DNA of 64,000 nucleotides, from positions 24,669 to 88,668 of IMG/VR virus record IMGVR_UViG_3300042691_016420; one strand, 5' to 3'. Shown piece by piece: positions 54,429 to 55,723 of the stretch. The notes beneath the pieces were generated by a model that saw nothing but the letters and a program-made list of their open reading frames with translations, did no database searches and was not told where the DNA came from. Position 1 is the stretch's first letter. Each line of letters opens with the position of its first letter. Source of the DNA: a virus. Made by a program: the position numbers and the translations under genes.

Positions 54429-54477
54429 TTCCCGACATATTTTAAGGTTTCCCGACAATAAATAGGGATTCCCGACA
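54429..54477 (+). repeat. Three TTCCCGACA direct repeats at exact 20-base spacing
   Basis: TTCCCGACA starts at 54429, 54449 and 54469. The spacing is two DNA helix turns, so a protein could bind all copies on one face. It lies right after the operon stop codon and before the structured RNA region. A further isolated copy lies inside the terminase gene near 43471. Confidence 0.75.
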
Positions 54478-54484
54478 AAAACAC

Positions 54485-54530
54485 TGCACAGAATTACGGC
54501 AATTATAAACTTTTGTAGTAGTTTTGTGCA
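54485..54530 (+). other. Stem-loop before the first tRNA-like element
   Basis: TGCACA (54485-54490) can pair with TGTGCA (54525-54530), 4 bases before the acceptor strand of the first tRNA-like element. It could expose or mask the tRNA-like domain. Confidence 0.35.
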
Positions 54531-54533
54531 CAT

Positions 54534-54639
54534 AGTCAGGTGGCGGAATTGGTAGACGCTATCTAAAAGATTATATGAAAGGGTGATATAAGAATGAAAT
54601 GAATAAACCTATTTACAGGTTCGAATCCTGTCCTGACTA
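54534..54639 (+). tRNA. tRNA-like element with class II features, anticodon not assignable
   Basis: Acceptor AGTCAGG (54534-54540) pairs with CCTGACT (54632-54638), discriminator A. D-arm GCG-(GAATTGGTAGA)-CGC is that of tRNA-Leu/Ser types. T-arm ACAGG-TTCGAAT-CCTGT is canonical and is directly preceded by a variable arm GAATA-AACC-TATTT. The space between D-arm and variable arm (about 41 bases) is too long for a plain anticodon arm; it contains TTATAT/ATATAA and TATC/GATA pairings. Total about 106 bases. Could be an interrupted Leu-type tRNA or a tRNA mimic. Confidence 0.55.
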
Positions 54640-54644
54640 CTATG

Positions 54645-54830
54645 AGTAAGAGGTACTCAGAGTCTTTAATCCAAGACTTAAACAATGGATAGGGTATTGG
54701 ACTGGACATCCTTAAACGCCAGTCTCTTGGGACTAAAGGATACCAACACAAATCCTCCCAGTAGTGTTGGCTGTTTTCAAGGGGGATGCCCCGCAGGTTT
54801 TTAAGAAATAGAAAACCGAATTAACTACTC
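54645..54830 (+). ncRNA. Hairpin-rich stretch between tRNA-like elements
   Basis: Series of perfect short stems: GAGTA/TACTC (about 54644), AGTCTT/AAGACT (54661-54678), GACTGG/CCAGTC, CCAACAC/GTGTTGG (54743-54770), GGGG/CCCC around GATG (near 54781-54792) and GGTTTT/AAAACC (54797-54818). No open frame fits. The density suggests a folded RNA continuous with the neighbouring elements. Confidence 0.45.
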
Positions 54831-54855
54831 ACAAGTAATCTCATTGTGGGGAAAT

Positions 54856-54946
54856 AGTCAGGTGGTGTATATAAGTAACACCCTTCATTGTAAGGATAGT
54901 AATATCTGGAAGGAAGAAGTAAGTGCAATTCTTACCCTGACTACCA
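54856..54946 (+). tRNA. Thr-type (TGT) tRNA-like gene with a 15-base hairpin insertion in the anticodon loop
   Basis: Acceptor AGTCAGG/CCTGACT, discriminator A and encoded CCA (54944-54946). D-arm GTGT-ATATAAGTA-ACAC. Anticodon stem CCTTC (54882-54886) pairs with GAAGG (54909-54913). The loop begins ATTGTAA (U33, anticodon TGT) but then carries 15 extra bases (54894-54908) that form their own hairpin GGATA-GTAA-TATCT. Variable AAGAA; T-arm GTAAG-TGCAATT-CTTAC. Without the insertion the length is exactly 76. D- and T-loops lack the usual GG and TTC, so function as a normal tRNA is uncertain. Confidence 0.6.
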
Positions 54947-55070
54947 GTGTTGTTCCCTTGAGAAAGGAATACTGAACAGAAACTATGTATGAAACTGATT
55001 ACAATAAAAGTAATGGCTTAGAAATAAGTTGGTAAAACAGTACAGACAACACAGAGGACTTCTTATCCTC
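54947..55070 (+). ncRNA. Multibranch RNA domain and adjacent anticodon-like hairpin
   Basis: GTGTTGT (54947-54953) pairs with ACAACAC (55046-55052), enclosing a T/A hairpin TTCC...GGAA with GAGA loop, a TACTG/CAGTA stem, ATTAC-AATAAAA-GTAAT, and CTTA-GAAA-TAAG with a GNRA-type loop. Right after, GAGGA-CTTCTTA-TCCTC (55054-55070) has a 5-bp stem and 7-base loop like a tRNA anticodon arm reading TCT. Confidence 0.5.
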
Positions 55071-55073
55071 AAT

Positions 55074-55155
55074 TTATCGGTTTCATCTCTAAAGATAGTA
55101 TCTTTGGACCAACAACCTTATACTTGTGAAAACCGAGAGTTTAGTGGGTTGTTTA
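55074..55155 (+). ncRNA. Pseudoknot RNA element, copy 1
   Basis: Stem A: CGGTTTCA (55078-55085) with TGAAAACCG (55127-55135), one bulged A. Stem B hairpin inside it: 9 bp around AGT (55088-55108). Stem C: AACAACC (55111-55117), in the loop of A, with GGTTGTT (55147-55153) outside A, giving an H-type pseudoknot. A second copy at 55237-55320 preserves all three stems with compensating changes. Confidence 0.8.
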
Positions 55156-55156
55156 T

Positions 55157-55237
55157 AGTCAAGTAATGCGTAATGTGAAAGGGGCCCATCACATCCTATA
55201 AGGTTGCATAGTCATGAGTTCGAATCTCATCTTGATT
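55157..55237 (+). ncRNA. tRNA-like domain between the pseudoknots
   Basis: Acceptor AGTCAAG (55157-55163) pairs with CTTGATT (55231-55237). Canonical T-arm ATGAG-TTCGAAT-CTCAT. No normal D- or anticodon arm: instead ATGC (55166-55169) pairs with GCAT (55206-55209) around a hairpin ATGTGA/TCACAT and a CCTATAAGG loop. Discriminator and CCA are absent. It abuts pseudoknot copy 1 on the left and shares one base with copy 2 on the right. Confidence 0.55.
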
Positions 55238-55320
55238 TATCGGTTTCATCTCTTAGAGTAGTCCTCTTAGACCAATAACCCTATGCTTGTGAAAACCGAG
55301 AGCTTAGTGGGTTATTTATA
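55237..55320 (+). ncRNA. Pseudoknot RNA element, copy 2
   Basis: Same three stems as copy 1: A CGGTTTCA with TGAAAACCG; B hairpin in the CTCTTAGAG region, 8 of 9 pairs kept with changed bases; C AATAACCC (55274-55281) with GGGTTATT (55309-55316). It ends 16 bases before the ATG of the next gene, so it may act as that gene's leader. Confidence 0.8.
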
Positions 55321-55336
55321 AACGTAAAATTAGAAT

Positions 55337-55723
55337 ATGAAGAAGTTAATATTTATCTTATTACTATTTATTAGTAATACTCTTTACTCTCAACAGTTTT
55401 ATGAAGCTAAAACTTTTTCTTTCTGTACAATTAAGAGAGGTGAGAGATGGACTGAGTGGACTGAAGTAGAACTTATCAAAGCTTCTATAGAGGTAGATAG
55501 TGCTGATGGTACTATAGTTTTATATACTAATAGAGTTGCAACTTATAGTATTTATAAAACTGATAAGTTTATAAATGATGGTGAAGTAGTCTATTGGTTT
55601 TTTTGTGAGGATGATTCTAAAGTCCTTTGTAATATCCAGTTAGTTCTAGATAGAAATGGATATAATAAGAATGAGATGGAAATTAGGTATGCAGATTTAA
55701 AATTAAGATATGAACTTAAATGA
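55337..55723 (+). CDS. Secreted protein
   Basis: 128 residues. MKKLIFILLLFISNTLYSQQ is a Sec-type signal peptide with probable cleavage near YSQ (about residue 18). The mature part is beta-rich with paired Cys (FCTIKR, WFFCEDDSKVLCN). It is preceded by the second pseudoknot element. A periplasmic or secreted role affecting the host envelope is inference; no family known to me. Ends 14 bases into the next gene. Confidence 0.6.
   Translation: MKKLIFILLLFISNTLYSQQFYEAKTFSFCTIKRGERWTEWTEVELIKASIEVDSADGTIVLYTNRVATYSIYKTDKFINDGEVVYWFFCEDDSKVLCNIQLVLDRNGYNKNEMEIRYADLKLRYELK

Follow-up and report, generated by a model that had tools for sequence, protein, structure and literature searches.

A rare, duplicated RNA fold on both sides of a tRNA-like RNA in a phage array of tRNA-like RNAs and structured spacers

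Do the two copies of a folded RNA that lie around a tRNA-like domain in this phage form a system of their own, or are they accessory to the RNA between them? Within the window (the whole 64,000-nt stretch of viral DNA analysed here, from a virus whose DNA polymerase matches PHROG 1252), a first-pass annotation had described two tandem copies of a pseudoknotted RNA, hereafter the knot, that share sequence and stems and flank a tRNA-like domain with intact acceptor and T-arm. Our analysis bore out both the repeat (86 nt per copy, 84% identical, ungapped, 163 nt apart) and the domain between, termed TLS3, in which a 7-bp acceptor and a T-arm were found. These elements close a noncoding stretch (54430-55336) that runs, in order, spacer X, TLS1, spacer Y, TLS2, spacer S1, knot 1, TLS3 and knot 2 (Table 1).

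Table 1 Positions in the window of the array elements, the stems of the knot and the gene that follows
Feature	Position	Strand	Description or basis
Spacer X	54478..54533	+	long hairpin
TLS1	54534..54638	+	Rfam tRNA 38.7 bits; acceptor and T-arm scan
Spacer Y	54642..54855	+	about 210 nt, structured
TLS2	54856..54942	+	tRNA-like RNA; acceptor and T-arm scan
Spacer S1	54945..55071	+	GTGTTGTTCCCTTGAGAAAGGAA...ACAACACAGAGGA...TCCTC
Knot copy 1	55072..55157	+	repeat; pair counts over three copies; all-helix listing
Knot copy 1, stem A	55077-55083 with 55130-55136	+	invariant 7 bp
Knot copy 1, hairpin B	55088-55096/55100-55108	+	covaries
Knot copy 1, stem C	55111-55118/55146-55153	+	covaries
Knot copy 1, stem D	55122-55125/55137-55140	+	all-helix listing
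TLS3	55157..55237	+	22 distinct homologues; model R2 92.7 bits
Knot copy 2	55235..55320	+	repeat; pair counts over three copies
Knot copy 2, stem A	55240-55246 with 55293-55299	+	
Knot copy 2, hairpin B	55251-55271	+	
Knot copy 2, stem C	55274-55281/55309-55316	+	
Knot copy 2, stem D	55285-55288/55300-55303	+	
Downstream gene	55337..55723	+	128 aa, probable exported protein

Covariation in the knot was evaluated on an alignment (A1) of copy 1, copy 2 and a third copy from a diverged relative (L001), three sequences being too few for formal significance. The compensated change previously noticed in stem C was recovered (one compensated pair among the three copies), and hairpin B, described as staying paired, contains four compensated pairs but also one T-T mismatch in copy 2. 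An exhaustive list of the helices of 4 bp or more that all three copies can form revealed a further stem, D (columns 51-54/66-69), which had escaped the first reading; it nests inside C and shows a compensated A-U to G-C change. Besides B, C and D, one short all-AU helix has a compensated pair, and it clashes with B. Copies 1 and 2 differ at 14 positions, all of them in B, C or D (nine, three and two, respectively), and six pairs carry double changes over B, C and D, compared with 0-1 when the partners were slid by 1-3 columns. Covariation across the three copies thus supports the proposal of a folded phage RNA. Because two U-G pairs of copy 1 (columns 19-35 and 47-75) become A-C when read on the opposite strand, it is the plus-strand RNA that folds; the genes flanking the array are likewise on the plus strand. 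The folding energy of copy 1 alone is ordinary (z -0.5), and that of the whole 907-nt stretch is unusual (z -4.0, 20 shuffles). As the annotation had stated, no known family matches: Rfam 15 gave no match on the knots at gathering score, and at E up to 10 a single chance antisense lncRNA match overlapped them.

The H-type pseudoknot claimed for the element depends on stem A (UCGGUUU/AAACCGA), which would pair the 5′ strand with the apical loop of D and so interleave with C. This 7-bp stem is possible in all three copies but is invariant in them, without covariation, and composition shuffles reach a 7-bp stem A in about 2% of cases; for these reasons we regard the pseudoknot as likely and plausible, but unproved. 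Within the spacer explanation set out below, the knot would be a small autonomous RNA fold in which stacking of C on D gives a two-part hairpin whose apical loop is 11 nt long (GUGAAAACCGA); seven of these loop nucleotides would pair with the upstream UCGGUUU to form A, and hairpin B would hang from the connecting strand.

A compact, likely pseudoknotted fold with an invariant core and a variable hairpin B, placed directly beside a tRNA-like RNA, could in principle be a ribozyme that cleaves itself and thereby releases the TLS3 ends, by analogy with theta ribozymes, minimal HDV-like ribozymes located beside phage tRNAs, mostly in phages of Bacteroidota, and proposed to free phage tRNA 3′ ends (PMC10879173). 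The knot resembles these as a small, likely pseudoknotted RNA directly beside a phage tRNA-like RNA; unlike them, it has a different strand order, lacks P3 and occurs upstream of the tRNA-like RNA as well. An HDV-type descriptor (strand order P1-P2-P3-P1′-(P4)-P2′, with a 7-bp P1 starting at G) matched neither strand of 54430-55400 and neither knot copy, and the knot drew no Rfam ribozyme match. The catalytic C that marks the start of J4/2 in HDV-like and theta ribozymes (PMC10879173) is absent from two of the three copies, since the segment joining the 3′ strands of A and C (GAGUUUAGU or similar) has no C in copy 1 or in L001. With descriptor and catalytic base both failing, HDV/theta identity was rejected, and a self-cleaving knot of this sort appears quite improbable.

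Two other comparisons concern pseudoknotted RNAs. Some plant viruses carry exonuclease-resistant RNAs beside tRNA-like domains, with a loop paired to a distant strand; the knot, in a fold predicted from sequence alone, similarly pairs its loop with a distant strand and adjoins a tRNA-like domain, but has no Rfam match. ToxI-like RNAs of type III toxin-antitoxin systems are short pseudoknots repeated in tandem ahead of a ToxN-type toxin gene. This identity was set aside, as the knots are 163 nt apart and the product of the next gene matches no Pfam family.

That gene nevertheless bears on a further possibility, namely that copy 2 is a cis-regulatory element (a riboswitch or translation control) of the coding sequence at 55337. 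Copy 2 does end 16 nt upstream of the ATG, as annotated, but it is absent from relatives, where the gene leader lies directly 3′ of TLS3. Because L001, L020 and L023, all without copy 2, retain the short leader CGTAAAA...ATG after TLS3 and before the corresponding start codon, control of the next gene is highly improbable; copy 1 and the L001 copy, moreover, are located upstream of TLS3 and not of a gene.

The distribution of the knot is narrow. The arrangement seen in the window recurs in L002, a record of the same phage that is 99.99% identical over 12.9 kb, and a homologous copy with kept stems was found in one relative, L001 (genes about 75-86% identical), which has a single knot upstream of TLS3. 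Two copies flanking the tRNA-like domain therefore describe the window but not a conserved arrangement. Of the spacers the knot is the rarest, with three copies spread over two phages: pattern scans of IMG/VR and GTDB, whose exact patterns miss diverged copies, yielded no fourth copy, model R1 recovered no further knot over the fetched loci and 20 whole records (the compared records being metagenomic and possibly incomplete), and the rest of the phage genome contains none beyond copies 1 and 2. Weak R1 matches in L045, L049 and L050 consist of hairpin-like parts with the conserved core missing, and the fold is likewise missing from additional IMG/VR pattern-scan contigs and from a Pedobacter MAG returned by the GTDB scan. 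Sequence borders raise the question of mobility: all three copies are bounded by TTAT and TTTATA, and the knot separates S1 from TLS3 and recurs beyond TLS3, at a place where relatives have nothing, a pattern that a short mobile or recombining sequence of no use to the phage might show. Since the stems were kept by compensated changes after duplication, however, selection on the fold is implied, and no other copy is present in the remaining genome; a functionless mobile sequence is in our judgement decidedly unlikely.

TLS3 presents the opposite distribution. A gapped pattern retrieved it from 31 viral stretches (22 distinct sequences), and in every contig other than those of the two knot-bearing phages it occurs without the knot. 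It comprises a 7-bp acceptor, a D-like hairpin with GG in the loop and a T-arm with the loop TTCGAAT, and all 23 pairs of the proposed structure form in all 22 sequences, nine pairs of the acceptor and T stems showing double changes; the acceptor and T-arm are thus 100% paired, even in L028, whose acceptor is wholly different (TATTGGG/CCCAATA). The body, ATGC-GTA-ATGTG..GG..CACAT-CC..GG-TT-GCAT, is nearly invariant, but much of it was demanded by the search pattern, so that its conservation is in part a product of how the sequences were selected. The hairpin loop always contains GG and the T-loop always TTCGA, features that, going by tRNA structure, the elbow requires. Where a tRNA has its anticodon arm and 7-nt loop, TLS3 has no such arm and shows only CC..GG, and neither ARAGORN nor the Rfam tRNA model called TLS3 in the window. 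Its exact pattern has no match in 84,980 prokaryote genomes, and searches of INPHARED for the array and for TLS3 returned no real match to either. As judged by sequence comparison, TLS3 is a separate, widespread RNA and the knot an optional spacer. Where the knot pair had been put forward as the system and the tRNA-like domain as its neighbour, the comparison shows the reverse, with TLS3 and the arrays widespread and the knot optional.

The knot is one of several interchangeable structured spacers, X, Y, S1 and others among them, that separate tRNA-like RNAs. Spacers have been exchanged, because X precedes TLS1 in the window but TLS3 in L023. Spacer Y, without an Rfam match in the window, is conserved in two much larger or unrelated arrays (G011 and G015) and was located at L142 8046-8257 and L141 3934-4144 (minus strand). 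Spacer S1 appears three times in G011 and also in G015, G009 and L040; it lies directly before a TLS in G011 and G015, while in the window knot 1 intervenes between it and TLS3. In L009, L015, L020, L029, L041 and L051, tRNA-like RNAs or tRNAs are preceded by a short hairpin, TGACAGC(T)TGGAAAGACA(A)GCAA, which recurs with one change in L063 and shows a compensated stem extension from GCTG/CAGC to GCTTG/CAAGC.

The RNAs so separated are themselves unusual. TLS1 has tRNA-Leu-like ends and a D arm, with about 49 nt replacing the anticodon arm; TLS2 is 98-99% identical in L001 and L052; and the two have the acceptor AGTCAGG/CCTGACT in common. Elsewhere, L037 has three tRNA-like RNAs besides TLS3 and L051 two, one of which ARAGORN calls tRNA-Gln, and the 208-kb contig G011 holds at least 16 members, counted as exact matches to the T-arm and acceptor 3′ end that they share (16 in all). 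Long arrays were seen in L141 and L144 (G011:160500-180000), L037, L051 and L142, with the members in G011, at least 16, standing alongside ordinary tRNAs. A scan for relatives through the M15 peptidase returned mostly unrelated phages, plus L063 with tRNA-like RNAs. Members of the long arrays keep the acceptor AGTCAGG/CCTGACT and the T-arm constant around a hypervariable middle of very different length. Among 31 distinct non-TLS3 members (68 to 154 nt), average identity is 84% over the last 26 nt and 28% over the middle, the acceptor having been a search criterion, so that its identity is no evidence. Some of these members score as tRNAs, and most, by eye, have no normal anticodon arm; most array members look unable to decode, and a few of the non-TLS3 members may do so.

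What, then, might the knot do between such RNAs? The first-pass annotation had listed an exonuclease-resistant, ribosome-binding, regulatory or processed RNA. Of these, a processed RNA fits best because the knot copies abut an element with tRNA ends, whereas regulation of the next gene is disfavoured as described above. The reading we tentatively favour is that the knot serves as an insulating or processing structured spacer in a precursor cut at its tRNA-like ends. The array would most likely be transcribed as a single precursor (promoter and terminator scans of the array gave nothing above chance), and host RNase P together with 3′ tRNA-processing nucleases would cut at the TLS acceptor ends, releasing TLS3 and the knots. 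Lying 2-3 nt from each acceptor end, the knots would keep TLS3 from misfolding with its neighbours and would shield newly made ends from exonucleases. What the comparison shows directly are the sequences and positions, stems B, C and D, the TLS3 family and the array context; that the array is transcribed and processed, that stem A forms in solution and that the knot insulates or protects are steps that we infer. Consistent with a spacer of this kind are the compensated changes in B, C and D, the short distances of the knots from the TLS3 acceptor (3 nt on its 5′ side, 2 nt on its 3′ side), the intact TLS3 acceptor and T-arm (the usual substrate of RNase P), the different spacers likewise placed beside the TLS of other phages (S1, Y, X and a short GGAAAGA hairpin) and the exchange of X between TLS1 and TLS3. 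Against it count the small set of three knot sequences in two phages, the contigs in which TLS3 has no knot beside it, so that the knot is not required, and the invariance of stem A. The main rival holds that the knot, once freed from the precursor, acts as a small RNA with a host protein or RNA as its binding target, and might for instance be a decoy for a defence or decay factor. Strong conservation outside hairpin B in all three copies would suggest a binding partner, and two copies would raise dosage, but the distribution is very narrow, and this rival is judged unlikely.

Known phage RNAs offer partial parallels to such a spacer and its array. T4 RNAs C and D are stable RNAs of unknown function within a phage tRNA operon and so are also non-decoding RNAs among phage tRNAs; T4 has two RNAs, whereas here there are families of tRNA-like RNAs with shared ends plus structured spacers. 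The freshwater-1 RNA (Rfam RF02979), found inside or beside tRNA clusters at L037 2073-2134 and L144 1885-1947 (both minus strand), is like the knot a structured small RNA in tRNA-rich regions, here of two TLS3-carrying phages, but has no sequence or structural likeness to it, and an Rfam scan did not find it in the window.

The larger finding is the array context; the knot is real but rare, one among several exchangeable folded spacers. Our literature search found no description of such tRNA-like arrays, and a viral array of tRNA-like RNAs is seemingly undescribed so far. Clusters of tRNA genes in phages are usually interpreted as devices for codon supply. We put forward, with some reserve, a new RNA system of tRNA-scaffolded arrays, in which the acceptor, D and T arms are constant, a hypervariable region takes the place of the anticodon arm and exchangeable structured spacers separate the members, which would act on host factors and not on codons. 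If true, arrays whose members mostly look unable to decode but keep the parts recognised by tRNA enzymes would mean that phages have put the tRNA scaffold, and the machinery that processes it, to another use, and the conserved TLS3 body and the structured spacers provide concrete RNAs for making, probing and deleting.

Short repeats also accompany these loci. Three TTCCCGACA repeats, 20 nt apart, lie just upstream of the array (window 54429-54477), the motif occurring four times in the window against 0.01 expected, and the upstream repeats are kept in L001, L023 and L052. In a 123-kb contig (L028 at about 4418, 5220 and 5528, and L143), a 25-nt unit, AAACAGATTGACCCAAAGGCATGGG, occurs three times among tRNA-like RNAs.
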